In this document: piece by piece, positions 11,091 to 51,673 of the stretch
Layout: the number at the start of each line of letters is the position of its first letter
Numbering within the stretch: position 1 is the stretch's first letter
From: Bacillota bacterium
GTDB taxonomy: Bacteria > Bacillota > Limnochordia > DTU087
Assembly (NCBI GenBank): GCA_012798695.1
Contig: JAAZMR010000055.1
Coordinates: 1-56,494 of the forward strand
DNA: 56,494 nt
Direction: 5' to 3'
Notes under the pieces: model-generated
What the model saw: the letters and a program-made list of their open reading frames with translations, nothing else
What the model was told of the DNA's origin: nothing
Database searches by the model: none
Made by a program: the position numbers and the translations under genes

Positions 11091-11165
11091 ATCTCCTCTC
11101 AATAACGCCAATAACTAGAGACTTCTTGATCCCATACCTTACTATTCACTATTTCTAACCGGAAC

Positions 11166-11936: not shown

Positions 11937-11951
11937 GACAGATCCCCTTTC

Positions 11952-13172: not shown

Positions 13173-13190
13173 AGTTCTCACCTCCATCTT

Positions 13191-23016: not shown

Positions 23017-24066
23017 CTACTCAAAATCTGTCACTTTACTGATTCTCCGCAGCTTACCTGGTTCGAAACCTTTCCGGCGGGCTATGGCTGTTCCCAGCAA
23101 CTCCGGGACAATAATCGAAAGCAGGGGGAAGAGGCTTTCTGGTACATGGGGCAATCGGGACACAAACAAGTTCTCTCTGGCGGCTACTTGCACAGATGTA
23201 TCGGTTACCAACCATGTTGGTGACCCATAATCGGCAGTATCCTGGGCTAGCTTGATCAACAGCCTAGTAGTTCTACCCATAGGGGCAAAGACCACCATAA
23301 GCAAATGAGGGCCTGCCGCCTCAATTGGGCCATGCCGAAACTGCCCAGCACTGATGCCCACAGCCGGTATTTGGGTCATTTCCTGGGTAATCAAAGCACC
23401 TTGCCGGGCGGTGGCTAACCCCGGTCCTCGGCTGGTGAACACAATGGAGCTAAAATCACCAAATTGGCCTAACAACCTCTCAACCTCACTACCAAGACCT
23501 GCAATCATTTCCTGCATATGTTCTGCCAACTCCAGGGCTTTATCTAAAGAGAGCACAGCCTCACCCAATACAGCATCTGCCAGTAGGTGTAATACCGCCA
23601 TAGTGGCGACAAATGTTTTGGACGTAGTTCCCCCTTCATAGCCGGCTAGTAAAGGCAGTATTATGTCACTTTTGCGGCCCAAACGGCTCTCTGGATCATT
23701 GGTGATGGAGATGAGTGGCATCGATTCAGGACGCGCTGCAGCTGCGAGGCAGGGTTCAGCACTCTCGCCCGATTGGGAGACAGCGAGCATAATCGCATTC
23801 CGGCCCATTATCCCCTGCCCATAGTGATAGAGCTCACTGGCATCACAAACTAAGACCTTTAACCCTGTCTGGTTGAGACGTAGTGCCAATAGCTCGCTTG
23901 CGAAGGCGGAGCTGCCCATGCCTACCGCTAGAGTGAGAGGTCGGCTCTTGATCAATTCAACAGCTTCCCGAAGCCTACTCTGCAAGTCACTCTCATAGGA
24001 TCTAACAAGGTTTCTTAGCACCCTAGGCTGCTCAGCAACATCATCCAGAAACGTCGTTTTCATCAT
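23017..24066 (-). CDS. double SIS-domain protein, GlmS isomerase-like (no glutaminase domain)
   Basis: A 349-residue protein equivalent to the isomerase half of GlmS: two SIS domains (about 45-170 and 200-330) with GMGSSAFAS, SQSGESAE and the TSKTF segment that in related proteins contacts the sugar phosphate. The N-terminal glutaminase domain is missing, so it more likely deaminates or isomerises an amino-sugar/fructosamine phosphate (FrlB/AgaS style) than makes glucosamine-6-phosphate. The start is the first of two adjacent ATGs at 24066, six bases after AGGAGGT; the frame is open 27 codons further. It lies 115 bases after glgP. Confidence 0.87.
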   Translation of the reverse strand: MMKTTFLDDVAEQPRVLRNLVRSYESDLQSRLREAVELIKSRPLTLAVGMGSSAFASELLALRLNQTGLKVLVCDASELYHYGQGIMGRNAIMLAVSQSGESAEPCLAAAARPESMPLISITNDPESRLGRKSDIILPLLAGYEGGTTSKTFVATMAVLHLLADAVLGEAVLSLDKALELAEHMQEMIAGLGSEVERLLGQFGDFSSIVFTSRGPGLATARQGALITQEMTQIPAVGISAGQFRHGPIEAAGPHLLMVVFAPMGRTTRLLIKLAQDTADYGSPTWLVTDTSVQVAARENLFVSRLPHVPESLFPLLSIIVPELLGTAIARRKGFEPGKLRRISKVTDFE

Positions 24067-24180
24067 TGTTGACCTCCTGTCCTTTTCTCTGGTGAAACTC
24101 GAATCCTTCTGTCCTCTATTCCGGCCAAATGCCCACAAGACTACCATTACCGTAAGACACAGGCCAAGGCCTGAGCATGA

Positions 24181-26619: not shown

Positions 26620-28549
26620 TTTCTACCTCCTGGGCAGTTTCGCTGTTTTCTCCCTCTTTCAAACACAGATAGACACTGGCTAAGGGTGGAAGCTTCAACA
26701 TCAGACTGTAGGGTTGGTTGTGCCAGGGGATGTTTTCTGTGAATAACTGAGAACTATTGACCTGGCCGGATCCCCCGTAAGCTTCAGCATCACTATTCAG
26801 TATTTCGGTATAAACGCCGGGAACCGGTACACCGATCCGGTAATCATAGCGTACTACGGGTGTGAAATGGCAGATGACGATGATGAACTCGTCGCCTGCT
26901 TTTGTCTTGCGCATAAATGAGACAACACTTTGACTATGGTCATGGGGATCGATCCACTCAAACCCCTGCCAGCTGAAGTCTTCCTCCCACAAGCACGGCT
27001 CCTGCCGATATAGATGATTCAGCTCCCGTACATAGTTATGTAGCTGGGCGTGGAGTGGGTAATCTAAGAGGTGCCAGTCCAAGCTCTCACGATAATTCCA
27101 TTCAATGAACTGGCCAAATTCTCCCCCCATAAACAGCAGCTTCTTACCAGGATGTGCCATCATATATCCATATAAGGCACGCAAACCGGCGAATTTCTGC
27201 CAATAATCACCAGGCATCTTATCCAGCAAAGACCGCTTCCCATGCACAACCTCATCATGAGAAAGGGGTAAAATGAAGTTTTCGGAAAAAGCATACATGA
27301 AGGAGAAAGTCAACAACTCATGATGGTACTGACGGTAGATGGGATCAATTTCCATGTATTTGAGGACATCATTCATCCAGCCCATATTCCATTTATAGTT
27401 GAAGCCCAAGCCCCCCAGATAAGCTGGACGACTGACTAAGGGCCAGGCCGTCGCTTCTTCGGCCATCATTAGGCAACTGCCAAACTCTTGGAAGACAGCC
27501 GTATTGAGTTTGCGAATAAAATCAATGCCTTCTAGGTTCTCCCGGCCACCATGACGGTTAGGCCGCCACTCTCCTGGCTTTCTGCCATAATCTAGGTAGA
27601 GCATATTACTGACGGCATCTACCCGCAAACCATCAATGTGAAATTCCCTCAACCAAAAGCAAGCATTAGAAATAAGAAAACTCTCTGCTTCCGGCTTGCC
27701 TAAATCAAAATTGGCAGTCCCCCAGCCCCGGTTTTCCCTCTTTCTGGGGTCAGTATACTCAAAGGTGGGGGTTCCGTCAAACTCTCGCAAGCCATGATCA
27801 TCTTTACAAAAATGGCCAGGTACCCAGTCCATGATCACCCCTATGCCATGTTGATGGGCCCTATCTACCAAATACATAAACTCATGAGGTGTGCCATAGC
27901 GGCTGGTAACCGCAAAGTAGCCGGTAGTCTGATACCCCCAGGAACCGTCATAGGGGTGTTCCATCAACGGCAAGAGTTCAATATGGGTATAACCCATATC
28001 CACCACATAATCGACTAGTTCTTCGGCGAGTTCGCGGTAGGTTAGAAATTCCTCTAGGACCCTCTGCCGCCATGAACCCAGATGCACCTCGTAAATGAGC
28101 AGCGGCTGATGGTAGCTAGGGGTCTTCTGCTCCTGCCAGGCCTCATCCTGCCACTTATAACCCTGCAGCCGGTAAACTATGGAAGCGGTGTTGGGTCTTA
28201 GCTCTGCATAAAACCCATAGGGATCGCTCTTTTGCTGGATACCCTTGGCGCTGTGGATCTCATACTTATAGATAGTGCCTTCTTCTAACCCTGGAATGAA
28301 CAATACCCAAATGCCGGAATCCTCGATTAGACGCATAGGATGCGCCTGGCCATCCCAATTGTTAAAATCACCGACAATACTTACAGCCCGGGCCCGAGGG
28401 GCCCAAACGGCAAACCGTACTCCAACTCTGCCTTCTTCTGTTACTAGATGAGCTCCCAGCATTTCATAGCTGCGAAAATGGTTCCCTTCATGGAATAAAT
28501 ACCGATCAAATTCACTATAAGGTGAGGATTGCCAATATCCCCTTGTCAC
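26573..28549 (-). CDS. glgB: 1,4-alpha-glucan branching enzyme
   Basis: A 658-residue GH13 branching enzyme that makes alpha-1,6 branches in glycogen. An N-terminal CBM48 domain (about 25-130; WAPRARAVSIVGDFNNW) precedes the catalytic barrel. The barrel has DWVPGHF, the nucleophile Asp in GLRVDAV, the acid Glu in MMAEEATAW and the stabiliser in LSHDEVVHG. A C-terminal beta domain follows. The start is a GTG at 28549, eight bases after AGGAGGGG that overlaps the pulA stop; a longer frame to 28636 would overlap pulA by 73 bases and lacks a binding site. The end overlaps glgP. Confidence 0.95.
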   Translation of the reverse strand: MTRGYWQSSPYSEFDRYLFHEGNHFRSYEMLGAHLVTEEGRVGVRFAVWAPRARAVSIVGDFNNWDGQAHPMRLIEDSGIWVLFIPGLEEGTIYKYEIHSAKGIQQKSDPYGFYAELRPNTASIVYRLQGYKWQDEAWQEQKTPSYHQPLLIYEVHLGSWRQRVLEEFLTYRELAEELVDYVVDMGYTHIELLPLMEHPYDGSWGYQTTGYFAVTSRYGTPHEFMYLVDRAHQHGIGVIMDWVPGHFCKDDHGLREFDGTPTFEYTDPRKRENRGWGTANFDLGKPEAESFLISNACFWLREFHIDGLRVDAVSNMLYLDYGRKPGEWRPNRHGGRENLEGIDFIRKLNTAVFQEFGSCLMMAEEATAWPLVSRPAYLGGLGFNYKWNMGWMNDVLKYMEIDPIYRQYHHELLTFSFMYAFSENFILPLSHDEVVHGKRSLLDKMPGDYWQKFAGLRALYGYMMAHPGKKLLFMGGEFGQFIEWNYRESLDWHLLDYPLHAQLHNYVRELNHLYRQEPCLWEEDFSWQGFEWIDPHDHSQSVVSFMRKTKAGDEFIIVICHFTPVVRYDYRIGVPVPGVYTEILNSDAEAYGGSGQVNSSQLFTENIPWHNQPYSLMLKLPPLASVYLCLKEGENSETAQEVENERSDEKGFCQGTGD

Positions 28550-28563
28550 ATCACCCACCCCTC

Positions 28564-30528
28564 CTAGCTCGATTTCGCTCTCTGGTAGCTGTCTGCATCT
28601 ACTAACACCATGGCGGTGTGAGGAGGTACTGTCCAAGAATCACCCTGAATCCTATCCAACATGGTAGTACCCGCCTCTTGGCCGTTGACTACGATCACCC
28701 AGTCCTCCCCCGGCAGCTCCATCTCTTTGCTCTCGGCATTGGCATTGAAGACAACTACAATAGTTTGCCAAGGGTCACCATTGGCATACTCGCCCAGCGC
28801 ATAGGCCACCATATGATGGGCAAATACCGGCAAAAACCGCAGGTGCATTTGAATCTCCTCGGCGGTACTCAAGCGAAAGGCCGGATGAGACTTGCGCAAA
28901 GCGATCAACCCCTGGTAGTATCGAAAAACCTCTCTATACCGATATTTACGTTCCCAATCCAGCTGATTTACCTCATCTGGTGATCGATAAGAATTGGCGT
29001 CTCCGTATTTAGTCCGGAGAAACTCCATGCCGGCATGGAGGAAGGGAATACCCTGAGAGGTCAACACAATCGCTCCACATAGTTTATGCATGGCCATGAT
29101 TCGTGCATCATCATTATCGGGGCTGACTGCCCGCAGCTTGTCCCATAAGGTCAGATTGTCATGGGCTTCCACATAGTTGATGCTCTGTGCCGGTTCAGCT
29201 GCCCAAGGCCGTTGGGTATAGATCACCTGGTTATAATCCACTTGGTCATGATCACAAGCTCCCACAATGCCACATTCCACACTTTCTTCCATTCCCACCC
29301 CACCATTCGCAAAACCAGGCCAATCAGCATGAAAGACATGGCCCCTCAGGCCATCCCGCAGATCATCATTGAAAACACCAGTCCCGGGCAATTGACGGAC
29401 ATTGCCTTTGAGAGCTTTGAGATAGTCTGGCAAAGGTGAACAGCCACCTGTCCACCCCTCCCCATACAGCATAATACTGGTATCCACCTCGTTGAGGGCC
29501 ATGCGGATCTCATTGACTGTGGGGATATCTATGAGGCCCATTAGATCAAAGCGGAATCCATCAATTTGGTATTCTGTAGCCCAATAACGGACTGAATCGA
29601 TCATCATTTTTCTCACCATAGACCGTTCAGTAGCCAGTTCATTGCCGCAACCTGAGCCATTACTGAAACAGCCCCTGGCATCTTGGCGATAATAGTATCC
29701 AGGCACTAGATGATTGAGGTGGGAGTTATGAGCATAAAATGTATGGTTATAGACCACATCCATATTGACCCGGATGCCTGCCTCTTTGATAGCTTTGATC
29801 ATCTGCTTGAATTCCCCGATCCGCCGCTCACCCTGGTATGGATCGGTAGCATACGAGCCTTCTGGGATGTTATAATTGAGCGGATCATACCCCCAGTTAT
29901 ACTCCTTCGGGCAAGGTATGGATTCATCAATGGTAGCAAAATCACAGCAGGGCATCAATTGGACATGGGTAATACCGAGTTCTACTAGATGGCTGAGTCC
30001 CGTCCATACACCCCCAGGCCCTCGAGTATACCTTTCCGCAAGCCCCAGATATTTGCCGCGATGGGCAATCCCAGATAGAGGGTGGATGGACATATCCCGC
30101 ACATGAATTTCATAGATGATGGCATCGACAAACCGTGACAGGGGCGGTCTAGACAGCTTCTCCCACCCAGGTGGATTGGTACGGGCCAGGTCTACCACCA
30201 TCCCCCGCCGGCCATTGACACCACAGGCTTTGGCATAGGGATCCATGGCTTCATGGATAACACCATCAACCAACACCTTAAAAGTATAATACAAACCATG
30301 CCGATCTCCCGCCAACTCAGTTACCCAAGTACCTTGCACATCTCGGTCCATGGGTATCTCAACACCTGGACCTTCATGACCATTGGCATAGGTCACGAGC
30401 CAAACTCGGGTGGCAGTAGGTGCCCATACCCGAAACTCTGTATATAGAGGGTGATACAGAGCTCCCAATTTTCCATCAAAGTGAAACCTCTCGTAGAATT
30501 CCTGGCTGGAAAAATCCGGATACGGCAT
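28564..30528 (-). CDS. pulA: type I pullulanase / glycogen debranching enzyme
   Basis: A 654-residue GH13 enzyme hydrolysing alpha-1,6 branches. It has an N-terminal CBM48-like domain (about 10-110; FRVWAPTATRV), the pullulanase signature YNWGYDP, then DVVYNHT. The nucleophile Asp is in GFRFDLMGL, the acid Glu in YGEGWTG, and VEAHDN supplies the stabiliser. No signal peptide is present, so it is an intracellular debranching enzyme acting with glgP. It lies 10 bases after glgA with AGAGGTG before the ATG. Placing the debranching enzyme between synthase and branching enzyme in one operon links glycogen structure and turnover. Confidence 0.94.
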   Translation of the reverse strand: MPYPDFSSQEFYERFHFDGKLGALYHPLYTEFRVWAPTATRVWLVTYANGHEGPGVEIPMDRDVQGTWVTELAGDRHGLYYTFKVLVDGVIHEAMDPYAKACGVNGRRGMVVDLARTNPPGWEKLSRPPLSRFVDAIIYEIHVRDMSIHPLSGIAHRGKYLGLAERYTRGPGGVWTGLSHLVELGITHVQLMPCCDFATIDESIPCPKEYNWGYDPLNYNIPEGSYATDPYQGERRIGEFKQMIKAIKEAGIRVNMDVVYNHTFYAHNSHLNHLVPGYYYRQDARGCFSNGSGCGNELATERSMVRKMMIDSVRYWATEYQIDGFRFDLMGLIDIPTVNEIRMALNEVDTSIMLYGEGWTGGCSPLPDYLKALKGNVRQLPGTGVFNDDLRDGLRGHVFHADWPGFANGGVGMEESVECGIVGACDHDQVDYNQVIYTQRPWAAEPAQSINYVEAHDNLTLWDKLRAVSPDNDDARIMAMHKLCGAIVLTSQGIPFLHAGMEFLRTKYGDANSYRSPDEVNQLDWERKYRYREVFRYYQGLIALRKSHPAFRLSTAEEIQMHLRFLPVFAHHMVAYALGEYANGDPWQTIVVVFNANAESKEMELPGEDWVIVVNGQEAGTTMLDRIQGDSWTVPPHTAMVLVDADSYQRAKSS

Positions 30529-30538
30529 AAAAACACCT

Positions 30539-31972
30539 CTAAGTCGCGATCAATCTCTGGTACAAATCTATATACTTTTTGGCTGATTGGGTCCAGGAAA
30601 AGTCCATCTGCATAGCTCTCTGGCAAATACGATTCCAGACGGGTTTGTCCTGATAGATCTCTAAAGCTCGCCTGATAGTATACAACATGTCGTGAGCATT
30701 ATAGTTGGTAAAACTAAACCCATTGCCTACTCCAGTTTCAGTATTGTAAGATTGCACCGAATCGTTCAGCCCTCCGGTTTCGCGAACAATAGGCAAACAA
30801 CCATAGCGCAGGGCAATCATTTGGGCTAACCCACATGGTTCAAACATAGATGGCATGAGCAACAAGTCGGCCCCAGCATAGATGCGATGGGCCAAGGTAT
30901 TATCAAAGCGAATATTAGCCGAGAGCTTTTCAGGATATTGAGAGGCTTTGATCCCAAACATATCTTCAAAATAGCCATCCCCGGTGCCGAGTACAACCAT
31001 CTGCAGATCACAATTCAGGATTTCATCTAGAACGTGGGCGATTAGATCAAACCCTTTCTGGCTCACCAGCCGCGAGACTATACCGATCAACGGGATTTCA
31101 CTATTAACCGGCAGATGCAGCTCTGCTTGCAGCCTAAGTTTATTTTCCACTTTATCCTGTAGTGAATCGGCATCATAATATTTCCAGATATGGGGGTCAC
31201 GCATGGGATTGTATTCATCGTAATCAATCCCATTTAAAATACCAACCAGCTCATCCTGGCGGTTCTGTAAGAGCCCCTCCAGTTTCTCACCATAAAAGGG
31301 ATATTGGATCTCTCGAGCATAGGTCGGGCTCACGGTCGTCAGGAAGTCAGAATAGACCAACCCTGCCTTCAGAAAATTGATATGGTCATGAAACTCCAGA
31401 CCTTCCACGGTAAAATAATCCCAGCTTAGTTCCAGTAAGTCATATAAGATGGTTTTGGGGAAAATGCCTTGGTATTTTAGGTTATGGATAGTAAAAACTG
31501 ACTTAGTATCTGCATAAAAAGGCACTTCCCCATAGTGCGCCTCCAGAAGTGGGCTAATGATGCCAGTTTGCCAATCATGCAGATGGAGTACATCTGGTTT
31601 TAGATCAATAGCGGTTAGAGCCTGCAAAACTGCTCGGCAGAAAAAGGCATAGCGCTCCGCTTCATCACCATATCCATATAATTCGTGGCGGCCAAAATAA
31701 TACTCATTATCTATTAGATAAAAAGGCACATCTTGGTGATTAGTGGCCAATACTCCACAGTATTGCTGACGCCAGCCCACCTTCACTTTGAAAGAATCTA
31801 CCAGGTGCAATGCTTCACATAGCTCGCTAGGTGTGCTCCGGTACTTGGGTAACACCACCGCTACATCAATTCCCTGCCGATGCAATTCCTTGGGAAGTGC
31901 TCCGATGACATCGGCCAAACCTCCACTTTTGGAGAACGGTACTCCTTCTGAGGCAACAAAGACTACCTGCAC
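30539..31972 (-). CDS. glgA: glycogen synthase (ADP-glucose type)
   Basis: A 477-residue GT5 glucosyltransferase that extends alpha-1,4-glucan from ADP-glucose in the cytosol. The N-terminal KSGGLADVIGALP loop binds ADP-glucose. The HDWQTG, GILNGIDYDEYNP and C-terminal PSMFEPCGLAQM/ETGGLNDSV blocks are all present. The GTG at 31972 was chosen because AAGGGGGT lies seven bases upstream; a GTG three codons earlier would overlap that site. It lies 18 bases after glgD. Length and motifs are normal for bacterial GlgA. Confidence 0.96.
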   Translation of the reverse strand: MQVVFVASEGVPFSKSGGLADVIGALPKELHRQGIDVAVVLPKYRSTPSELCEALHLVDSFKVKVGWRQQYCGVLATNHQDVPFYLIDNEYYFGRHELYGYGDEAERYAFFCRAVLQALTAIDLKPDVLHLHDWQTGIISPLLEAHYGEVPFYADTKSVFTIHNLKYQGIFPKTILYDLLELSWDYFTVEGLEFHDHINFLKAGLVYSDFLTTVSPTYAREIQYPFYGEKLEGLLQNRQDELVGILNGIDYDEYNPMRDPHIWKYYDADSLQDKVENKLRLQAELHLPVNSEIPLIGIVSRLVSQKGFDLIAHVLDEILNCDLQMVVLGTGDGYFEDMFGIKASQYPEKLSANIRFDNTLAHRIYAGADLLLMPSMFEPCGLAQMIALRYGCLPIVRETGGLNDSVQSYNTETGVGNGFSFTNYNAHDMLYTIRRALEIYQDKPVWNRICQRAMQMDFSWTQSAKKYIDLYQRLIAT

Positions 31973-31990
31973 AGTCAGCACCCCCTTGTG

Positions 31991-33097
31991 TTATATCACA
32001 GTTTTCTTGCCCAATACCATGGGGTAATCAGGGTCACCAACCAGATTTTTGGCATCAGTGACGACTACTTCTTTATCAAGAATCACGTTTTGCAGTACAC
32101 AGTCTTCCCCGATAACGCTTTTCTGCATAATGATACTATCTCTGATCACTGACCCCTTGCTGATCTTCACCCCCCGAAAGAGCACACTGTTTTCCACAGT
32201 ACCTTCAATAATGCAGCCATTGGCCACCAACGAATTACTTACCCGGGCACTCTCTTGGTACCTAGTGGGAGGTTCGTTTTTCACCTTAGTATACACCGGC
32301 CGTTCTTTGGGGAACAGCTCACGCCAGATCAGGGGTTCTAATAGTGCCATACTGGTTTTGTAGTAGCTGCGCAAAGAGGTCACTTTGCCCACATAGCCTG
32401 TAAAGGGGTAACCATATACTTTGAGGTGATGGAGGTTTTTCATCAAGGCATCTTTCATCCAATCCGTTTCCGCTCGGGCGATGCCCTGATCGAGCATTTC
32501 CATAAGCAGGGCCTTGGACAGCACACAGATATTCAACGAGAGATTTTGACTACGGGGCCGGATGGGGTTGACTTCAATACCGGTAATCCGGCGATCAGGG
32601 CCCACATCCAGCAGAGTACAGCGATCATTAAACTGATCCCAGTTAGGCTTATAGATGAGGGTAATATCTGCTCCCTGAGTCCTGTGAGCCTCCAAGACTG
32701 CACTGAGATTGATATTGCAGATCTGCGCGGTCGATCCGGCAATCACTGTATCTTGACGACTTTTTTCCAAATAGTCCAGGTGGCGGTAGAGAAGTTCCAT
32801 ATCGCCATAGGTGCGGCTTTCCATGCTTTGGTCCGGAGGCAGGATGAATAGACCATCCCGCTGCCGGTCTAGATCCCATTCATTGCCAGTGCCGAGATGA
32901 TCCATCAAGGAGCGGTATTGATCTTTGACGATAAGCCCTACATTTCTAATACCGGCATTTACCAGGTTAGATAGGATGAAATCGATCAGCCGGTAGCGGC
33001 CCGCAATGGGTACTGCCCCTAAGGCCCGATGGGCCGTGAGTTCTTTCATGTCACCTGTCGGTTCCACTAAGTTGATCAGCCCCATGACATTCTGCAT
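31991..33097 (-). CDS. glgD: glucose-1-phosphate adenylyltransferase regulatory subunit
   Basis: A 368-residue paralogue of GlgC, typical of Bacillota, that forms a heteromeric ADP-glucose pyrophosphorylase. The N-terminal pyrophosphorylase loop is degenerate: where GlgC has AGGQGSRL this protein has NLVEPTGDMKEL, so it is probably non-catalytic and modulates GlgC. The RLIDFILSNLVNAGI block and the C-terminal left-handed helix repeats (IEGTVENSVLF, GEDCVLQNVILD) remain. It starts one base after the glgC stop, with GAGGT in the end of glgC as binding site, so the two are translated together. Confidence 0.95.
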   Translation of the reverse strand: MQNVMGLINLVEPTGDMKELTAHRALGAVPIAGRYRLIDFILSNLVNAGIRNVGLIVKDQYRSLMDHLGTGNEWDLDRQRDGLFILPPDQSMESRTYGDMELLYRHLDYLEKSRQDTVIAGSTAQICNINLSAVLEAHRTQGADITLIYKPNWDQFNDRCTLLDVGPDRRITGIEVNPIRPRSQNLSLNICVLSKALLMEMLDQGIARAETDWMKDALMKNLHHLKVYGYPFTGYVGKVTSLRSYYKTSMALLEPLIWRELFPKERPVYTKVKNEPPTRYQESARVSNSLVANGCIIEGTVENSVLFRGVKISKGSVIRDSIIMQKSVIGEDCVLQNVILDKEVVVTDAKNLVGDPDYPMVLGKKTVI

Positions 33098-33098
33098 C

Positions 33099-34283
33099 TC
33101 AGTCTACCTCCCCATCGAAAATACCTTGGAAGCGAAAAGCCGGGGGTATGTTCAAATCCTCACCGATAACCGTCAACACAGGCTCTGGCGGTTCTCCCCC
33201 GATCACTGCTTGGCTCCCTATAATTGTGTTACTTGCGATAATCGCCTTGCGGATAATCGCATGTTCACCCACCTGTACATTGGGCATCAAGACTGAGTCA
33301 TACACCTGGGCATGTTCCCCAATATATACCCCCGGGAATACCACAGAACCGCGGACCAGGCCTTTGACCACACAGCCTTCATTTACCAGGGAGTTTTGCA
33401 CCTGGGAGGAGGCGGCTATGAATTGTGGTGGCTGGTTGGGGTTGACCGAGTAGATGCGCAAGTAGCGTTCATTCAGATCCAAGGCCGGTTTGTCACCAAG
33501 AAGATCCATATTGGCTTCCCAAAGGCTATCGAGAGTGCCGACATCTTTCCAGTACCCCTGAAAGGGATAGGCAAATAGCGGTTCTCCACCATTTAGCATG
33601 TTGGGAATAACATTCTTGCCAAAATCATGAGCAGAATCAGTGTCTGCTTCATCCTCGATTAAGTAATGTCTGAGCACTGGCCAGTCAAAAATGTAAATCC
33701 CCATAGAGGCCAGATTGCTCCTGGGCCGCCGGGGCTTCTCCTCAAAGGCGAGAATCGCTCCCTGGTCATCGACATTCATGATACCAAAGCGGCTGGCTTC
33801 GCTCCAAGCAACTTCGATGACGCCGATAGTGGCTGTTGCTCCCCGTTTCCGATGATAATCCAACATTTTGCCATAATCCATCTTGTAGATATGATCTCCT
33901 GACAAGACCAGGACATAGTCGGGGTCATAGTTCTCGATAAAATCAATATTCTGGTATACAGCATTAGCAGTTCCTTTGTACCATTCACCCCCGGTAGCTC
34001 GTACAAAAGGGGGCAAAACCGCAACTCCTCCGTGTCTGCGATTCAAGTCCCAAGGACTGCCAATACCGATATACGCATTGAGAGCCAATGGTTGGTATTG
34101 AGTAAGTACGCCAACTGTATCAATGCCTGAATTTGTGCAGTTGCTAAGGGCAAAATCAATGATCCGATACTTACCTCCAAAGGGCACCGCTGGTTTGGCT
34201 ACCCGTCTGGTCAGAACACCTAGGCGACTCCCCTGGCCGCCTGCCAGTAGCATGGCAATACATTCCTTTTTTGGCATCTTCAT
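33099..34283 (-). CDS. glgC: glucose-1-phosphate adenylyltransferase catalytic subunit
   Basis: A 394-residue enzyme making ADP-glucose, the committed step of glycogen synthesis. Seen motifs are the nucleotide loop [20 protein letters not shown], the GTANAVYQN segment and the substrate region ASMGIYIF. C-terminal beta-helix repeats ([19 protein letters not shown]) carry the usual allosteric region. The ATG at 34283 is preceded by GGGAGGGAGG; a start 15 bases earlier would lie within that site. It is the first gene of the glycogen operon and is transcribed divergently from the oligopeptide importer genes. Confidence 0.97.
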
Positions 34284-34403
34284 ACTCCTCCCTCCCATTC
34301 TGTGTTGCCGAAAATATCCTTCTTCATTTAATGATTTCCAGAATAGTATCGGCTTTCCCTCCCATAATGTGGCGAGTCATTCTGGTTAACATGTATACAC
34401 CTT

Positions 34404-42979: not shown

Positions 42980-43353
42980 CTAAAAGTCCCCCTCTTATCC
43001 TATTTTCGGCCAAGGTATCTAGCTAACTATCTACTGTTTCGAGAAATGATGAAATAACCCCTCTTATCTCGGCGGCCGTTACCTTCTCCATTGGCCATTC
43101 TTGGCACATCTTGATCAGATACAGCTCTCTGATTGAACGGTGTATCAATGGCGATTAGAATGCTCTTACTAGTCAGGGGAAATCCCATGAAGGCAAGTGC
43201 CCTTACCGCCAAACCGCGGACTGGATATGGGCAGAGAAAACCCCTAGCCGAGAGACTACTCTTTACTAGGGGCTTCATTCTGAGGTTTGCATCACACCGG
43301 ACCGGTCAATAACCTATATGCCGCCAGATGCGGGCTGTACCTGCAAATCGACA
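42980..43353. other. intergenic region between TPR gene and aldolase gene
   Basis: This holds the terminator of the 51673-43354 operon and the aldolase leader. An 83-codon frame (43027-43278, minus) starts inside the terminator stem and has no recognisable protein features; I do not treat it as a gene. Confidence 0.5.
43237..43272 (-). terminator. terminator of the envelope operon
   Basis: CCCCTAG/CTAGGGG (7 bp) encloses a second AGAG/CTCT stem. It is followed on the minus strand by TTTTCTCT, about 80 bases after the TPR gene stop. Confidence 0.75.
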
Positions 43354-44271
43354 CTATCTAGTAAGAGCATTCAAAGTACCCTGATACTGGAACCTATACC
43401 ACGCCCAAGAGCTCGGTAGTCCTAGGTTAAGACCCTGCCGCAACATGGCGATGGCTAGAAGTTTTTCGTCCAACTGCGCATAGGCCAACCCTAGTAGTCC
43501 GTAAGCAGCCGCGTCGTTGGGGTTTATCTGGGTTGCATGCAATCCGTAGCTCACGGCATCTTCGTAGTTTCCAGCCAGATAGCTAAAGTGAGCCAACCAG
43601 TAAATGGCATCCGCATTGTCGGGCATGATCGAGACTGCTGTTTCGATTTGCTGCAAGGCTCGCTCCAGATTGCCGGTAACCAGGTAGATAATGGCCAACC
43701 GAACATAGGCCGGAAGGAATTCTGGTGAGAACTGAATAGCCTTCTCGTAATGCTCGATACTGTCATTATACTTTTCCAAGTTCGCAACACTGGGGTTGTC
43801 GTATTTGCCCCACGTATAGTCCATTTCATAAGCCCGACCTAGATAATAGCGGCTCAAAGCTTCATCAGCTCCAAAAGCAATGGCGATGGCGAAGCTCTCT
43901 ATCGCGCGAGGATATATATCTCTCCGATTATTCTCATACTCTAACTCATCTGCCTTATCGAGCCGCAATATACCTAGTATGAAATGATTAGTCGGATATG
44001 TGTAATCATCCTTGGTAAGCTGCTTATACTCATCAATATAGTCATCCCTTTTCCCTGAAGCAAGATAAGCGTCGGCAAGCCTCTCAGCAATCTCCAGGTC
44101 ATACTCGGCTATTTCCAGGCCCTTCTCAAACTCGACAATTGCCCGCTGCCAGTCTCCTACCTGCATAAACTTATTTCCATTCTCTAAGAACTGGTCAGCC
44201 TGAGCCATGACCATAGTGGTGCTGGACACCAATAATGAAAAACATATGAATAACAACAGCTTCCTTCTCAC
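43354..44271 (-). CDS. secreted TPR-repeat protein
   Basis: A 305-residue protein with a signal peptide (about 1-23, ending VMA) followed by tetratricopeptide repeats over most of the chain, for example GDWQRAIVEFEKGL, YNDSIEHYEKAIQFSP, ALQQIETAVSIMP and AVSYGLHATQINP. TPR arrays act as docking scaffolds. The start is a GTG, ten bases after AAAGGAG. It is the last gene of the seven-gene operon that encodes only exported proteins. It would act in the periplasm or at the cell surface, possibly assembling the CsgG/FlgT-like partners. Confidence 0.85.
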   Translation of the reverse strand: MRRKLLLFICFSLLVSSTTMVMAQADQFLENGNKFMQVGDWQRAIVEFEKGLEIAEYDLEIAERLADAYLASGKRDDYIDEYKQLTKDDYTYPTNHFILGILRLDKADELEYENNRRDIYPRAIESFAIAIAFGADEALSRYYLGRAYEMDYTWGKYDNPSVANLEKYNDSIEHYEKAIQFSPEFLPAYVRLAIIYLVTGNLERALQQIETAVSIMPDNADAIYWLAHFSYLAGNYEDAVSYGLHATQINPNDAAAYGLLGLAYAQLDEKLLAIAMLRQGLNLGLPSSWAWYRFQYQGTLNALTR

Positions 44272-44291
44272 TGCACTGACACTCCTTTGCC

Positions 44292-46334
44292 TTATTCAAA
44301 ACACACGTCATCTGGTAAGTTGTCCATGTACTCGTTGGCTGGTTCGGTATACGGGGGCACTGCATAGCGAGGCCATGGTGTGCCTTTCATATCCACTGCC
44401 AAAGCCTCTTTGCTCACAAAAATCGCCCCTCCGCCTAGACCACCACCATGGTTAGATATAAACACATTACCCGCTATTTTCGGTGCTGACTTTTTCTCTA
44501 CATAAATTGCCCCACCACTTCTTGCTGACTTATTGCCGGCAAATTGATTGTTTATGATCGTGGGAGAAGAGTCACGAATATAGATAGCTCCCGCACTCAA
44601 GAAATAAAATTGAGAAGCTGAGTTCTCTTTGAAGTGATTCCCTTCAACCACTGGCTGGGAATCGCCCAGAATAGTGATCGCGCCCTCTTTGTTATTAACA
44701 AACACGTTGCGCCGAATGGTCGGTGATGACCTGTTGGATATGAAAACAGCCTGTCTAGCACTGTCTTTGATTGTAAACCCTTCCAAGATCGTGTCATTGT
44801 TCTCACCTTTACTGAAGTTGGCGATAGTGGGGTTAGCCGGGCCACCCGTCAATATGGTAGAACTGACTATATCTGGAGCGAGAGGATTGACGCTGCGGAT
44901 GGTAATGGATTTCCCCCTAAAATCTAGGTAATCGTAGTAAGTCCCAGGCGCAACAATAATGGTGTCCCCAGCCTTGGCTGCATCCACAGCTTGTCGAATG
45001 GCAGCATAATCTTGAGGAACCCTAATCTGCCTACCTGCACCTCGAGACCGGCTCTTGGGTGTCTGAATCGTCATCTGAGATTGCTCAAAGTCGAAGTCGG
45101 AAGTATATATGTCAGTAGATAGCAAGCTAGCTATGGTAGAATCCTTAACCAGACTCCCTATAGTGCTGCTGATTAGTAAACCTGTTTCTGTCTCGATCAA
45201 CCGCATATCTAGATCTAGCTTTGATCCCAAATCAGTGATGCTGCCAACAATAATGGCATCTACCCCGAGGATCTTCCCTACTTCTTTGATAGAATCCTCA
45301 TCGATGAGCCCCGTCTGGCTCAGTTTTAGCTCATCTATGACTTGGTCAAGCTGCTGCCTTTCCACCACTTCTATCTCAGGGTAAGCTGCCAAGGCCGTGA
45401 GCACTGCTTCCTGCAGTGTCCATGATAAGAGCGTATGGGACTGATTGGGAACTGTAAACCGGTAAACCGCAATCTTCTTTGTATCGACCAGCTGATAAAC
45501 GAGGTCCCCAACCTGGAAAGGCTCACTCACCAAGCCTCTGGGAGTGCCGATGGACATATTCTGTCTTACCCTGCTTATTTCAATCACGCCCCGATGCTGC
45601 TCCTGATGCCCAATTAGATCCCCAGTATTGGGATCATATATCGGTTCTCCAGGCCCGACGATTTCGTATCGCTCACCCACCTTCATCTGACCATAACCTT
45701 GATTGAGATACACCTCGGTGGGAGAAGCCTGCGCTACCCTCGCTGCTTTGGCTCTCAATGGTTCCAGAATACGTTTAACCAACTCTTCAGTTTCTAGGCG
45801 CAGATTGTCCGAGCTTTCATCAGCTGCCTCCGGTTCCAGGATTACCTCCAGGTGAGTCTCCTGCCCTTGAGCTATGGTCACCGGCATCTTTGCAGGCACG
45901 TATCCGGATTTGTCAATTATGACATTGTATGTACCGGTACCCATCGATTCCAGCCATAAAGGTGAGCTATAGAGGTTTTGCTCAATCAGGACAGTACATT
46001 CGGTGGGCAAGGTTGTAATATACAGGCTTCCTGACGGCTTTGCCAGTGAAACCTCTACAATTACCTGCTCACCGGGAGGTAAGAGGATCGTCTGCTCCCA
46101 TGGGAGATAACCATCACATGATACTCGAACATTGTGAGAGTCTGCCACTTCCCTAGCAATTAGTGGTGTTACACCCACGAAATCTTCACCGATGTAGACC
46201 TTTGCACCTGAGATATTCGAGAATATCGCCAGCTCTCCAAATTGGTCCGCTCTTTGCTCCTCACAGCCCATTTGACTGACACTGAGGGTGACGAGCAAGA
46301 CAATCATGAATAACTTCTTGTACACTTCCATCAT
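44292..46334 (-). CDS. exported PEGA-PEGA-FlgT_C-CsgG-beta-helix fusion protein
   Basis: A 680-residue protein combining five modules. The N-terminal signal ends in a non-ideal lipobox (QMGC, Cys24). Two PEGA domains follow (about 30-97 and 98-172; AKVYIGEDFVGVTPL). An SH3-like FlgT_C-type domain (about 200-285) shows EVYLNQGYGQMKVGERYEIV and YDPNTGDLIG. A CsgG-like domain (about 290-415) shows VVERQQLDQVIDEL and KILGVDAIIVGSI. A right-handed beta-helix (about 430-650) shows DTIIVAPGTYYDYL and NNQFAGNKSARSGGAI. PEGA modules often bind surface polymers. I know no named family with this order. The start is one of two adjacent ATGs, four bases after GGAGG. Confidence 0.85.
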   Translation of the reverse strand: MMEVYKKLFMIVLLVTLSVSQMGCEEQRADQFGELAIFSNISGAKVYIGEDFVGVTPLIAREVADSHNVRVSCDGYLPWEQTILLPPGEQVIVEVSLAKPSGSLYITTLPTECTVLIEQNLYSSPLWLESMGTGTYNVIIDKSGYVPAKMPVTIAQGQETHLEVILEPEAADESSDNLRLETEELVKRILEPLRAKAARVAQASPTEVYLNQGYGQMKVGERYEIVGPGEPIYDPNTGDLIGHQEQHRGVIEISRVRQNMSIGTPRGLVSEPFQVGDLVYQLVDTKKIAVYRFTVPNQSHTLLSWTLQEAVLTALAAYPEIEVVERQQLDQVIDELKLSQTGLIDEDSIKEVGKILGVDAIIVGSITDLGSKLDLDMRLIETETGLLISSTIGSLVKDSTIASLLSTDIYTSDFDFEQSQMTIQTPKSRSRGAGRQIRVPQDYAAIRQAVDAAKAGDTIIVAPGTYYDYLDFRGKSITIRSVNPLAPDIVSSTILTGGPANPTIANFSKGENNDTILEGFTIKDSARQAVFISNRSSPTIRRNVFVNNKEGAITILGDSQPVVEGNHFKENSASQFYFLSAGAIYIRDSSPTIINNQFAGNKSARSGGAIYVEKKSAPKIAGNVFISNHGGGLGGGAIFVSKEALAVDMKGTPWPRYAVPPYTEPANEYMDNLPDDVCFE

Positions 46335-46381
46335 ATGGCCTCCATAACTCACAGTCATACTAGTTGCAAACAGGCATCAGA

Positions 46382-47518
46382 TTACCTAGCCACGGCATGC
46401 AGCTTGACCGCTTCGATGCTATTACCACTAACGCCAATAACCTCAAGATGCAGGCCAGCCCAATCCACTGCTTGGATCTCATTAGCCAATTGGCTGGTAG
46501 TCAAGAGTGTGCTTACATCGAGGTGGGCTCGTCCATCACGGAAACTACGAATAAATACGTTTCCCACCAAGTGAGTGTTCTTCAGCCTGGTTTCCACCGT
46601 CTGTAGATCCTCAAAGACCAAGCCCTTGATTTCCAGACTGATGATGGTCTCCTTATTGACGTAGCGGTTGGCCAATGCCGTAACCAAGTGTTCAATCATG
46701 GCATCTCCAGCATTAGACATGGCTACCCGGGCGGCACCCTCTGCGTCAAGCGCCAAACCTGGTTCATTGGTGCGGTGGGTGGCGAGCACATATGCATTAG
46801 AGCCATCCAGAACCCGTACTTCCACGCTGCCTCGATAGGATTCCAGCCCATGGATATTCCCTACCGGGCTAGCTTGGGCAACCCCCAATACCAGTAGATC
46901 GGCATTGATGGCACCGGTTAGCTTAGAAACAGCCTGAGCATCTCCTGCTAGGGCCCGAGGAACTTCATATGAATAAGCATCATAGCTTAAGGCGCGATTG
47001 TCCACCAATAAGAACCCGGCAGAGATCAAACCCTCGATGATCACCGGCTCGGCCGGGGAACTAGCTGAAAGGTCACTGCCAGACTGCTGCGGTATTAGGA
47101 CCGCTATGCGAGGGTTGCCCTTCCGCTGGATGGCAGCCTTGAGAGCGTTTGCATCATTCTCCAGCCGCCCTGCTTGAATCACCATCAAAAGCATTACATT
47201 AATCAATCCCTCATCCACCCATTGATCTGTAATGGAATATGATGCCACATAGCCAGCCGCCTTGGATAGAATTGAGTCTTCAACTAGTTCGAAGTTACTC
47301 ACCCATGTATGGGAATCGAGATAAGACCCCAGAGCCTGTTCGACACCACGGCGCATAGCATCCCTAATGGCCACGTCAATAGCGTGGGCCAAATCTTCAT
47401 GAATCACTGCATAACCGGTAACGGTTATTTCTATAGGCTCCTGATCTGCTTTGGCAAAGGCGCAAGATGTCAAAACCAGACACACCATACAGGCCACGAA
47501 TATTCTCTTTGCGCTCAT
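46382..47518 (-). CDS. FlgT-like exported (lipo)protein
   Basis: A 378-residue exported protein. The signal ends in a good lipobox, LTSC (Cys19), although an AKA signal-peptidase-I site follows. Residues about 28-115 match the FlgT N-terminal pattern: AIDVAIRDAMRRGVEQALGSYLDS, then LSKAAGYVASYSI. Residues 115-280 resemble the CsgG-like middle domain of FlgT (RIAVLIPQ, INADLLVLGVAQA). The C-terminus is a third, unassigned domain. FlgT in Vibrio builds the H-ring of the flagellar motor. No flagellar genes are near, so a different envelope role is likely. GGGGGGT precedes the ATG. Confidence 0.78.
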   Translation of the reverse strand: MSAKRIFVACMVCLVLTSCAFAKADQEPIEITVTGYAVIHEDLAHAIDVAIRDAMRRGVEQALGSYLDSHTWVSNFELVEDSILSKAAGYVASYSITDQWVDEGLINVMLLMVIQAGRLENDANALKAAIQRKGNPRIAVLIPQQSGSDLSASSPAEPVIIEGLISAGFLLVDNRALSYDAYSYEVPRALAGDAQAVSKLTGAINADLLVLGVAQASPVGNIHGLESYRGSVEVRVLDGSNAYVLATHRTNEPGLALDAEGAARVAMSNAGDAMIEHLVTALANRYVNKETIISLEIKGLVFEDLQTVETRLKNTHLVGNVFIRSFRDGRAHLDVSTLLTTSQLANEIQAVDWAGLHLEVIGVSGNSIEAVKLHAVAR

Positions 47519-47534
47519 TGAGCCTACCCCCCAT

Positions 47535-48425
47535 CTACTCTGCTACTAGCCTGGACAGAACCTGCTGCAATCCAGCGTGGTTGGGAAACAATGCTGCAGA
47601 AAAAACTGCCATCTCCACCGCCATATCCACTAGATCCGCTCTTTCCAAGACTGTCACCAGTACCATAATCTGATCTGGAGTAAGCTTCTCGTAGAATTGC
47701 TGGTCAGTGTACTCCAGCAGAGGCGCTATCGTTCCATAGGCTGCATAGTTATCACCAGACATTAGTTGGATTTGGGCTTTACTCACAATGATATCTGCAC
47801 GCAACCCCAAGGCAGGCTGAAAACCAAGCAGCCAATCCAGGTTAGCTAATGCGTGATCCGTTTTCCCCAGGTAGAAGAACAGCTGTGCCTGGGCAAAAAC
47901 ATACTGAGCAAACCGCTCGAGGTTAACGTCTTCTGCTAACTGGTAACTCACATCTTGACTAGGCATACGCACAAGCGACCCCAGCCACTCAGTATTGACC
48001 TCGGTTGTTTCCAGAAATTCACCAACTACATATTTGAACCCATCAGCTAACTGAAAATAGACCAGATCCTTATGAAGAGCCATCGGTCCCTCTACTTCGA
48101 TCTTGATCTTGTCATAAAACGCAGCCAGAACGGCCTGCAATTGAACCGCTGAAAGAAAATCAGGCTCACTGTGCCGTGGATAAAACGCTACCCCATATAA
48201 GTGATCTACATATGCAGCCCCACTGACCAGAAAACCAGAGGGCAACCATGTGCTATTGGCCATTAATGAGTCAACCACTGCGCTGTCCCAATCTGTGTTG
48301 GCCATTACCAGCTCTTGCATTACATCCAGCTCCGCGGGCAGTGCCTCGGCAGAAGCCGATAAAACAAGAAAACAGGCAAAGAGTAATAGGATACTCTTTG
48401 CCCCAGATCCGATTCTAGAGATCAT
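47535..48425 (-). CDS. secreted protein of unknown function, TPR-like C-terminal half
   Basis: A 296-residue protein with a signal peptide (about 1-26, SASA). The N-terminal half (30-160) is not recognised. The C-terminal half has helix-turn-helix repeats resembling degenerate TPRs (YVFAQAQLFFYLGKTDHALANLDWLL, then AYGTIAPLLEYTDQQF). The ATG overlaps the stop codon of the upstream gene (ATGATCTCTAG, 11 bases), so the two are translationally coupled. It is followed by the FlgT-like gene. It may be a partner protein of the 48415-49695 product. Confidence 0.75.
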   Translation of the reverse strand: MISRIGSGAKSILLLFACFLVLSASAEALPAELDVMQELVMANTDWDSAVVDSLMANSTWLPSGFLVSGAAYVDHLYGVAFYPRHSEPDFLSAVQLQAVLAAFYDKIKIEVEGPMALHKDLVYFQLADGFKYVVGEFLETTEVNTEWLGSLVRMPSQDVSYQLAEDVNLERFAQYVFAQAQLFFYLGKTDHALANLDWLLGFQPALGLRADIIVSKAQIQLMSGDNYAAYGTIAPLLEYTDQQFYEKLTPDQIMVLVTVLERADLVDMAVEMAVFSAALFPNHAGLQQVLSRLVAE

Positions 48426-49695
48426 CTTCCGAACTCACCTTTCCAGTGGGTGCTTGTTGGACAGGAGCATCGCTTCCCGGCTCATAAGTATCGCTCAGGC
48501 GTCGGTTGCCTGACCCACTCTTCTGGGCGGGACTTTGCATTTGACGGTAAAACTCAGCTGCATCCCCGGATACGCTGGGGAGATAGACATTAACCGCATA
48601 AACCCAATACTCATCTGTCTTTAGCTGAGTATTTACGCCTGGGGGCATCTGGCCACTGCGAAATGAGCGGTAATCATCAGTAACAGCCATGGTGTTTAGG
48701 AACCGATGCTGCACCTCATCCAGCACCTCGTGCTGAATAGTGGGATCATCTTCGACAACCTCCTGGAACTCCTGTTGGGAATAGGCTGTGGTTGTTCGCA
48801 ACCCCGTATTCCAAGTGACCTGGTCTCCATTCATTAGACCGATCATTGCATCATTGGCCCTGACTGTAGCAACTCGCTCTGCAACCTGAAATAGCCTACG
48901 GGCCATGGTCGGGTCGTCGTGCTGCCGAATTATGTCACTGCCAAAGCTGATCACTGCTGTTTCGCCGGTGGATGGAACGAACACTATCTTGCCACCTACT
49001 GGTGGAACAATGCCGAGGTTAATCTGTTGCAGCACATAATCCATGCCTGCTCGCAATGACGAGGTCTGCACCACTGCCCCGGAAATGTTGGAGACGGCTG
49101 ATATAGTCTTCAGTGATGTTGCCAGGCTGACATATACCTGTTTCTTTTCCGGCCGATGCTCGACTTCATAGACCACATATCCCCGCAACAAGCCCTCTAC
49201 CGCTTGTTGGAGATCTTCTTCGTATATAGTTGAAAAGTTATAGGCACTCTCGGCCCCCGTGGTCACTTCGTCCAAACTCTCTTGCAGCCGGTCACGGCCT
49301 CTGCCAGACAATCCTCGTAAGCCCCGAGTGAGCTCTGCTTTGGCCTTAGTATATGCTCGGACATAGGCCAACCGCAAACTGTGCTGAGTAGCATTGGGAT
49401 TTTCAAACACTACATAGCTTTCCGTTACTCCGGCCATATAACCTAACCCTGAGCCAAACATGACTTGGCGAAACCCTCCGCCCAAATCACGCAGTTTTTG
49501 GCTGGCATAGTTAAACCCATCTTGAGCAGTTTCTGCTTCAACTATCCCATCATCCGCTTCATTCACAACAGCCACAATCTCTGTACGACCACCCTCAACC
49601 GGAGGCAAAAAATCGTCAGTCGAAAATGCCAACCCACCTACTGTCATAGCCAAAACTATTCCTAGAGCTAATAGACCATTTCTGATATGCTTCAC
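48415..49695 (-). CDS. secreted protein of unknown function with an LPP20-like stretch
   Basis: A 426-residue protein with a signal peptide (about 1-24, GGLAFS). Residues about 80-185 (LRLAYVRAYTKAKAELTRGL followed by VEGLLRGYVVYEVEHR) follow the alternating helix/strand pattern of LPP20/FlgT_N-like domains, a weak match. The last 40 residues are Ser/Gln/Pro-rich and probably disordered. The start is a GTG at 49695, seven bases after AGGAGG; the frame is open 25 codons upstream without a binding site. It is the third gene of the envelope operon, separated from the CsgG-like pair by about 294 bases that might hold another promoter. Confidence 0.75.
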   Translation of the reverse strand: MKHIRNGLLALGIVLAMTVGGLAFSTDDFLPPVEGGRTEIVAVVNEADDGIVEAETAQDGFNYASQKLRDLGGGFRQVMFGSGLGYMAGVTESYVVFENPNATQHSLRLAYVRAYTKAKAELTRGLRGLSGRGRDRLQESLDEVTTGAESAYNFSTIYEEDLQQAVEGLLRGYVVYEVEHRPEKKQVYVSLATSLKTISAVSNISGAVVQTSSLRAGMDYVLQQINLGIVPPVGGKIVFVPSTGETAVISFGSDIIRQHDDPTMARRLFQVAERVATVRANDAMIGLMNGDQVTWNTGLRTTTAYSQQEFQEVVEDDPTIQHEVLDEVQHRFLNTMAVTDDYRSFRSGQMPPGVNTQLKTDEYWVYAVNVYLPSVSGDAAEFYRQMQSPAQKSGSGNRRLSDTYEPGSDAPVQQAPTGKVSSEDDL

Positions 49696-49989
49696 TTGAA
49701 CTCCTCCTTGAATTCCCAGCGCCTTTACCTGGCTATTGCTATTCCGTTTTTGCTGCCGATCTGGGTGCAAAGATCAGCTGGGTATCAGCCTCCCCTCGTT
49801 TCATCAGATGCCGGAAGTCCATGGCAGACAGCCATCAACCGACTCGTTATGTAGTTCCATAGTACTAGCTCAAAGCAAGAAGCGCCCCTTGTAGGCACAA
49901 TATACTAGATGTTCTAGGGTCTTTTCCTTGTTTCCTCCATACTGATTGCATTATTGTGTTAGATCATTGCTTGGCATTGCCCTGGTTGA

Positions 49990-50814
49990 TTAATTTGGCT
50001 GCAAAACAGCATTAATATGTAGGCCTTCGAAAACATTGACATCTCTTAGCCAACAAGCATGGCCAGGATAGCTCACGGCTACTGCGTGGATTCCCGAACT
50101 CAAAGGAATCACAGAGGGCGTATTCCCATAATAGATGCCATCAACCAAGATCTCTGCCCCTTGGGGATGGGAATCGATGTATACTGTTACTTCTGAAATG
50201 CTATCGGGACTAGACTTTTCCAATTCATTCATTAGGCGTTTTACTGCACCACTCATTGATTTCTGCAGTAGAACCCGGTCTATGCTAGATGAAAGCCGGC
50301 CCTTAGACAGGGCTTCTTCGTGAGAACTGCTAAACGATGTGGCAAGACTTATGAGACCTGTATTCACGTCTAAGACTCGCAAGCTCACACTCATTTCTGA
50401 GACAATCTTGGCAGTAGATATCCCATAGCCCCGAAAATGAGTTGTCTCTTGTTCAAAAGAGATGATCGAGCCTGTTACCAGGTATTCTGCTCCCAAGAGT
50501 CGTCCCAGCTGAACTGATGACTGATCTAGGTCCATCAAACCGGTCAGGGAGTACTTCTGTTCTGTAGTTATCTCAGAGAGCTTAGTCCGCTCAACCATAG
50601 AGACTTTCCCTGACTGAACTAAGAGAGTACTTAATATCTCCTCAGCCGCTTGTTCAATGCCTGGGAGCTCATGCCCAGTTGCATTAACAACACCGATAAC
50701 TGCCATGATGGGTTGGGCGGCGATTGCAGCGGGATATGCCATAAATACTAATAGCATCACCATTATGCCAGTCAACCTAAGGGCAATGCCTCTATTACTG
50801 TTTGCGTACAACAT
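49990..50814 (-). CDS. exported CsgG-like protein with C-terminal PEGA domain
   Basis: A 274-residue exported protein. The signal peptide (about 1-33, ending AIAA) has no lipobox. The CsgG-like core covers about 36-195: an opening IGVVNATG strand, MVERTKLSEI, GRLLGAEYLVTGSI and LRVLDVNTGLI. A PEGA domain occupies the C-terminus (about 205-274; VTVYIDSHPQGAEILVDGIYYG pattern). E. coli CsgG is a lipidated outer-membrane pore. The lack of a Cys and of the CsgG membrane hairpins means this need not be a pore. The ATG at 50814 overlaps the preceding gene by 20 bases with GAGGTGG as binding site. Confidence 0.82.
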   Translation of the reverse strand: MLYANSNRGIALRLTGIMVMLLVFMAYPAAIAAQPIMAVIGVVNATGHELPGIEQAAEEILSTLLVQSGKVSMVERTKLSEITTEQKYSLTGLMDLDQSSVQLGRLLGAEYLVTGSIISFEQETTHFRGYGISTAKIVSEMSVSLRVLDVNTGLISLATSFSSSHEEALSKGRLSSSIDRVLLQKSMSGAVKRLMNELEKSSPDSISEVTVYIDSHPQGAEILVDGIYYGNTPSVIPLSSGIHAVAVSYPGHACWLRDVNVFEGLHINAVLQPN

Positions 50815-51673
50815 ATCCCACCTCGAAAACAGCATCCTCTGCTTCAGCCACACTAGCCTCTGCATCGACACTGATAATCCGCAAGCTACCCATAGGTATC
50901 TCGACTGGACTAGATAACCCTGCTACTTTGACCAATTGAAAGACCGCGAAACGATCCCCACGAGTAACTCCATGGACACTCCCCAGATTGAGCACATACT
51001 TGTCCTCAATTACAGCCAGTATGTTCCCAGCCAGTTCTTCTCCGGGCGCATCCCATTTTGCATATACTTCTTCGAACTCTTCGACCAGCTCAGATACGGA
51101 TTTGGTCAATGCTTGGCCCAATACCGAGTTCTTGAAGGTATCACTTTGAAAGGATACCCCCATGAGATTATGCACTGAAATACTTGCACCGGAATGCTTA
51201 CCAGAGGATTGAACAGAGCCGATGATCTCCCCTGTTTCAGTATTGACTATTCTGGCACTCAGGTTGACTCTGGCGGTGGTGCTCCGAGCTCCGATGGGGC
51301 CCAGCTGAATCCCGCCGGATTCATTCATGTCGATGGCGGTTACGGTACCCATGACCAACAGATCCGCGCCCAGCAAGCGTCCAATCTCCGCTGCACTCAA
51401 GAGATCGACTCTACCGGAATAGCCAAAGTCCTGCTCCTGAATGATTTGCAGCAAACGTCCGCGTTCTACAACTCTCACACCTTCAAGCTCTGCTAACCGA
51501 TCGGTTAGAGATTCTGTGATACCTGTGATCATCTGATCTCGATCAATGTACCAGTTTCTGATTTCATGCCCTTCAAAAGGCATTACTGCCACTGTACTCT
51601 GGGCTGCCGCTATTGTCGGAAAACATATTAGGCAGCTAAGGATGACTAAGACCAGATATGTTCGTTTTACCAA
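50795..51673 (-). CDS. exported CsgG-like protein with FlgT_C-type domain
   Basis: A 292-residue protein with a signal peptide (about 1-24, IAAA). The CsgG-like core (about 26-195) shows VAVMPFEG, VVERGRLLQIIQEQ, GRLLGADLLVMGTV and ARIVNTETGEI. The C-terminal SH3-like domain (about 210-292; KYVLNLGSVHGVTRGDRFAVF) resembles FlgT_C. The start is a TTG; GGGGGT lies eight bases upstream and no ATG or GTG alternative was found. It is the first gene of the seven-gene envelope operon and overlaps the second CsgG-like gene, suggesting a fixed ratio of the two products, perhaps a hetero-oligomeric ring. Confidence 0.82.
   Translation of the reverse strand: MVKRTYLVLVILSCLICFPTIAAAQSTVAVMPFEGHEIRNWYIDRDQMITGITESLTDRLAELEGVRVVERGRLLQIIQEQDFGYSGRVDLLSAAEIGRLLGADLLVMGTVTAIDMNESGGIQLGPIGARSTTARVNLSARIVNTETGEIIGSVQSSGKHSGASISVHNLMGVSFQSDTFKNSVLGQALTKSVSELVEEFEEVYAKWDAPGEELAGNILAVIEDKYVLNLGSVHGVTRGDRFAVFQLVKVAGLSSPVEIPMGSLRIISVDAEASVAEAEDAVFEVGYVVRKQ

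Follow-up and report, generated by a model that had tools for sequence, protein, structure and literature searches.

Described systems built from FlgT-, FlgP- and CsgG-type proteins

In the flagellar protein FlgT, a single chain comprises the N, M and C domains. CsgG/FlgT-type domains are also found in proteins that do not necessarily form rings, for example in LpoB, which regulates PBP1B. In Vibrio, FlgT, FlgO and FlgP belong to the H ring (PDB entries 3W1E and 8Z5N), and in Campylobacter a FlgP protein belongs to the basal disk (9HMF). Within the FlgP family, an insertion between the SHS2 helix and the second strand has been reported to correlate with ring formation (PMC12222027). CsgG is the channel of the curli system, and many CsgG hits have been considered likely paralogues outside curli (PMC3521004). 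A literature search for FlgT, CsgG and LPP20 together returned no open-access paper, which is weak evidence because subscription papers lay mostly outside its scope.

The locus described here lies within a stretch of 56,494 nucleotides (the window), one complete contig from a genome of 2.68 Mb. It resembles the Vibrio H ring in the FlgT fold of one protein (g1) and the FlgP profile match of another (g5), and clusters related to it likewise show FlgO, FlgT_N and LPP20 matches. It differs from that ring in having no flagellar genes nearby. In addition, the domains are split and recombined with respect to the H ring, N-like and M-like domains being found in g5 and M and C domains in g1, and PEGA, beta-helix and TPR parts are added, together with the g3 protein.

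Organisation of the locus

Positions 43354-51673 are occupied by seven consecutive minus-strand open reading frames, from g1 (51673) to g7 (43354), as the preliminary description had stated, with the reservation that g2 and g3 should be given new starts. Ribosome-binding sequences were used to choose these starts. The g2 gene most likely starts at the ATG at 50814 instead of at 50871, with GAGGTGGG upstream, and g3 most likely at the GTG at 49695 (preceded by AAGGAGG) instead of at the TTG at 49770; for g6, the ATG at 46334 is probably the start. With these starts, the intergenic gaps from g1 to g7 are -20, +294, -11, +16, +47 and +20 nucleotides, and the overlaps of 20 and 11 bases reported earlier are recovered, the former between g1 and g2 and the latter between g3 and g4. 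The gap sizes make a single operon plausible, in line with the seven-gene operon first proposed; the 294-nt interval between g2 and g3 (49696..49989), however, leaves room for two transcription units, possibly split 2+5. This interval has no match in Rfam, and a promoter scan gave results at chance level. The run ends, as described before, at a clear intrinsic terminator (43225..43300, minus strand) with a long stem around GCCCCUAG/CUAGGGGUUUU and a U run, whose folding energy is -28.6 kcal/mol (z -3.9 against shuffled sequences).

All seven proteins had been read as exported, and each of them indeed has a basic N-terminus followed by a hydrophobic core (11-residue hydropathy 2.6-3.4) with no internal hydrophobic segment, the call being based on N-terminal charge and hydropathy and not on a dedicated signal-peptide predictor. 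The motif for a lipid anchor is absent from g1, g2, g3, g4 and g7. A weak lipobox, QMGC, is present in g6, which may possibly be a lipoprotein. Elsewhere in the window (10326-14489 and 23017-34298) there are genes for amino-sugar use and a complete cluster for glycogen synthesis and breakdown, mostly on the minus strand.

CsgG- and FlgT-type cores

The g1 protein (50795..51673; 292 aa) combines a CsgG/FlgT_M-like core with a FlgT_C-like SH3 domain, and g2 (49990..50814; 274 aa) a CsgG-like core with a C-terminal PEGA domain (Pfam PEGA 1.6e-12). The Pfam CsgG family is matched by g1 (1.8e-23), g2 (3.1e-19) and g6 (2.9e-10), in all cases over the curated cut-off, and the source genome contains no further CsgG match; the earlier claim of such cores in at least three proteins is thereby confirmed. 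FlgT_C has been matched in 4 of 10 members of the g1 family (best 2.2e-4). An AlphaFold model of g1, built with ten homologues (pLDDT 74.8, pTM 0.52), finds its best PDB fold match in Vibrio FlgT (3W1E, E 9e-18), over 291 columns and thus the full length, with a Vibrio LPHT-ring chain (8z5n, 1.8e-16) coming next. Structure prediction, which the preliminary description had proposed as a check, thus partly supports a FlgT-like fold for g1; the domain arrangement is uncertain, because the pTM is 0.52 and the TM-scores to FlgT are below 0.5.

The core common to g1, g2 and g6 is also that of the curli channel, and g1 or g2 might be an outer-membrane pore of the CsgG type that secretes a surface polymer or protein. 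In favour of such a pore, besides the three CsgG cores, the g1 model has long strands at the place of the CsgG membrane hairpins, the first of them showing strong alternation. However, neither g1 nor g2 has a lipobox, and in the length of the first hairpin region both the g1 family (by about 4 residues) and g2 (by about 7) fall short of E. coli CsgG and of the class's own curli CsgG. Moreover, FlgT outranks CsgG in the fold search with g1, in which the CsgG fold (2.7e-7) was placed below FlgT, the 8z5n chain and a Chlamydia protein. Finally, Pfam detects no CsgE/CsgF or curlin-repeat genes among the seven, as noted previously for curli subunits, whereas CsgG (6.9e-41), CsgF (5e-12) and two curlin-repeat proteins are all detectable in the true curli locus of G022, a diderm Bacillota relative belonging to the host's class. 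On these grounds, an export channel is considered improbable. The curli locus of that genome (L045, G022:C287, 49-3243) has a compact order, namely a curlin-repeat protein, CsgF, CsgG and a second curlin-repeat protein.

A different proposal is that the proteins of the operon act across the periplasm as regulators of peptidoglycan synthesis or hydrolysis, in which case rings would not be needed. LpoB matches are found in 8 of 10 g1 homologues and in g2 (5.7e-9), and a gene for an MltC-like lytic transglycosylase is present in the Pseudoalteromonas cluster described below, both of which are in accordance with such a role. The CsgG scores are, however, far above those of LpoB, and the LpoB equivalog TIGR02722 (cut-off 110.55) is not reached by either protein (29.9 bits for g2 and 13.5 for g1). 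The g1 model does match the folds of the ring lipoprotein PelC (1.1e-5) and of LpoB (2.8e-5), more weakly than those of FlgT and CsgG, and in contrast to the PelC and LpoB systems no Pel genes or partner synthase accompany the operon. Since, in addition, the cluster in the window has no synthase or hydrolase gene and g5 has a ring-type FlgP insertion, we regard this role as improbable.

The FlgP-type protein g5

The g5 protein (46382..47518; 378 aa) is predicted to consist of a FlgP-like SHS2 domain, a CsgG/FlgT_M-like middle domain and a conserved C-terminal domain. On its own, the g5 sequence gives no usable Pfam match, and the FlgT resemblance that the preliminary description had assigned to a fourth protein stays below Pfam detection; comparisons at the family level do confirm this resemblance. 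When a profile built from 12 homologues was compared with the PDB, it matched Campylobacter FlgP (9hmf, 7.2e-9) and Vibrio FlgP (8z5n, 4.1e-5); a FlgT_N match at 1.4e-4 is found in a g5 homologue, and the middle domain resembles the core of g1 (hhalign 94.6%). The alignment with Campylobacter FlgP is ungapped across 80 residues and includes the above-mentioned insertion that correlates with ring formation. By sequence, g5 is therefore predicted to be a ring-type protein whose FlgP-type domain includes the ring-forming insertion. Compared with Campylobacter FlgP, g5 is much longer, owing to its extra CsgG/FlgT_M-like and C-terminal domains. The N-terminal half of g5 also resembles the Leptospira lipoprotein LipL46 (NCBIfam, 1.9e-10), although at 40 of 400 bits this match is far under the cut-off.

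The proteins g3, g4, g6 and g7

Neither g3 (48415..49695; 426 aa), which is without known family, nor g4 (47535..48425; 296 aa) has a Pfam match, TPR matches included in the case of g4. Homologues of g3 have been found only in a locus labelled Candidatus Cloacimonadota (L004, 46%) and in Pseudoalteromonas (L050, 30% over the full length). The gene was sought without success in viral contigs, in 61 relatives and in 398 genomes of the phylum; it occurs in 1 of 73 genomes of the class, and among 125 genomes of the phylum of L004 only the genome of L004 itself matched. A pattern scan of GTDB contigs, a method that detects close relatives only, yielded one relative. An AlphaFold model of g3 from two sequences reached a pLDDT of 30, and a comparison with the FlgP/LPP20 domain gave no support for a relationship. 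A homologue of g4 directly follows g3 in L004 (23% over 243 aa).

The largest protein, g6 (44292..46334; 680 aa), contains two PEGA domains, a FlgT_C-like stretch, a CsgG/FlgO-like core and a C-terminal right-handed beta helix. Its Pfam matches are PEGA (2.8e-21), Beta_helix (1.9e-14), CsgG (see above) and FlgO (0.039), and its core is similar to a 371-aa protein of another locus (L035). The last protein, g7 (43354..44271; 305 aa), is a predicted exported TPR protein (TPR_19, 3.7e-19). The PEGA domains of g2 and g6, the beta helix of g6 and the TPRs of g7 had all been named in the preliminary description, and Pfam agrees.

Gene neighbourhoods in other genomes

Homologues of g5 are present in 25 of 398 genomes of the phylum, and in 15 of the 20 loci read there a CsgG-like gene is found on the same strand at a distance of at most 1.5 kb; by comparison, about 120 kb of control sequence contained no CsgG-like gene. 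These clusters also contain FlgO (6.9e-15), LPP20 (0.0013) and TPR proteins, as well as a weak LptE match. Most g5 homologues in the phylum (loci L100-L116) are adjoined by a second protein with a FlgP/LPP20-like domain, of about 290 aa.

Several arrangements of the operon genes have been observed. In a genome of the same family (G003, locus L030), g1 and g2 lie side by side (70 and 44% identity) without g3-g7. Another genome (G572) has a g5-g1-g2 run in which the g2 homologue is short; this homologue (L057, 7064-7435) is a 124-aa frame that may be truncated or frameshifted. A single fusion protein in G054 joins a CsgG core and a FlgT_C-like part to the middle and C-terminal domains of g5, and in G034 a g2 homologue is paired with a protein resembling the core of g6. 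The most extensive run is g3-g4-g5-g2-g1 in L004, located between transposase-like genes, the N-terminus of g5 being absent from the open frame. This contig (1-10144) comes from a metagenome-assembled genome, has about 30% GC and transposase-like genes at both ends, and could be mobile or wrongly binned.

Another example comes from Pseudoalteromonas sp. HL-AS1, where the full-length g3 homologue immediately follows the counterpart of g5 (E 8e-14, from a small search set), in a cluster that also holds genes for LPP20 and the MltC-like lytic transglycosylase. The cluster (L050, 10846-18805 of NZ_CP133570.1) is a run of eight genes for exported proteins on an 805-kb replicon, annotated mostly as hypothetical, and includes a lipoprotein, the LPP20 protein, the g5 and g3 homologues and the transglycosylase. 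A relationship between its p3 protein and g1 was considered, and the comparison gave no support.

The co-conservation predicted for the seven genes thus holds in part. Genes g1, g2 and g5, and rarely g3 and g4, recur as neighbours elsewhere, so that the outcome which the preliminary description had named as refuting its proposal, an absence of such neighbours from every related genome, does not apply. The exact seven-gene set, on the other hand, was seen only in the source genome, and g6-g7 were not found together with other operon genes in the genomes searched.

The host and its flagellar genes

Omp85 is encoded in the source genome and in 39 of 40 relatives; the host class is therefore diderm, as assumed in the preliminary description. 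In its content it seems to be similar to Limnochordia-like Bacillota, which have been described as diderm (PMC11456536). We considered whether the window might be misassembled or contaminated and reject this, since four genomes of the same family share 75-81% identity with the cardiolipin synthase in the flank and a transporter run reaches up to 91% in G006. In the same-family relatives with matching flanks, the operon is absent at that place.

Given the homology to FlgT, FlgP and FlgO, the g1-g7 proteins might be accessory rings of the cell's own flagellum, equivalent to the H ring or basal disk and encoded apart from the flagellar cluster. Flagellin_N matches occur in the source genome and in 19 of 21 relatives, and a chemoreceptor gene is located 2 kb from the operon, in agreement with this possibility. 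The absence of flagellar genes claimed earlier is accordingly true within the window only, since the genome has a Flagellin_N match and its relatives are mostly flagellate. However, of 73 genomes in the class, 4 have g5 and a single one has g3, so that in most relatives the flagellum manages without them. Besides, inspection by eye of the lists of open reading frames revealed no evident flagellar genes next to the window operon or the g5 clusters, and the lone Flagellin_N match of the source genome (a 318-aa frame, 79 bits) is like the weaker, FlgL-sized matches of the relatives. Taken with these observations, a flagellar role seems unlikely.

A possible ring system outside the flagellum

In our judgement there is about an even chance that the operon encodes a periplasmic ring or collar associated with the outer membrane, related to the FlgT/FlgP/FlgO ring system but not flagellar. 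The family memberships, the fold of g1, the ring-type insertion of g5, the conserved neighbourhood and the fusion protein support this reading, from which we infer ring assembly, stacking, location and use. Against it count the scarcity of lipid-anchor motifs, which makes a tether to the outer membrane doubtful, the incomplete conservation of the seven-gene set, and the presence of CsgG/FlgT-type domains in proteins such as LpoB. According to the model, the N-terminal domain of exported g5 would assemble into a FlgP-type ring, to which g1 and g2, with FlgT_M/CsgG cores and either SH3 or PEGA tails, would add more rings in a stack. The g6 protein might tie the stack to the wall or membrane via its PEGA and beta-helix parts, g4 and g7 could act as helical adaptors, and g3 may be a special subunit. 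The structure would probably serve, at specific sites, as a brace or organiser of the outer membrane against the cell wall. A protein kit common to the flagellar H ring and basal disk and to the CsgG core would in this way be employed outside the flagellum.

If this non-flagellar reading is right, proteins that form the rings of high-torque flagellar motors also live independently in the envelope of diderm Bacillota, a group central to the debate on outer-membrane loss. The operon would then offer a candidate for a structure of the periplasm or outer membrane that has not yet been described and that cryo-tomography could show, and would hint at the origin of the flagellar accessory rings. More tentatively, and with a chance of roughly one in three in our estimation, diderm Bacillota, and occasionally distant bacteria, may possess a conserved machine of several outer-membrane rings that is not flagellar and consists of FlgP-, FlgT/FlgO- and CsgG-type ring proteins. 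Such a machine would represent a new type of envelope complex, perhaps near the ancestral pool that supplied the flagellar H ring and basal disk.
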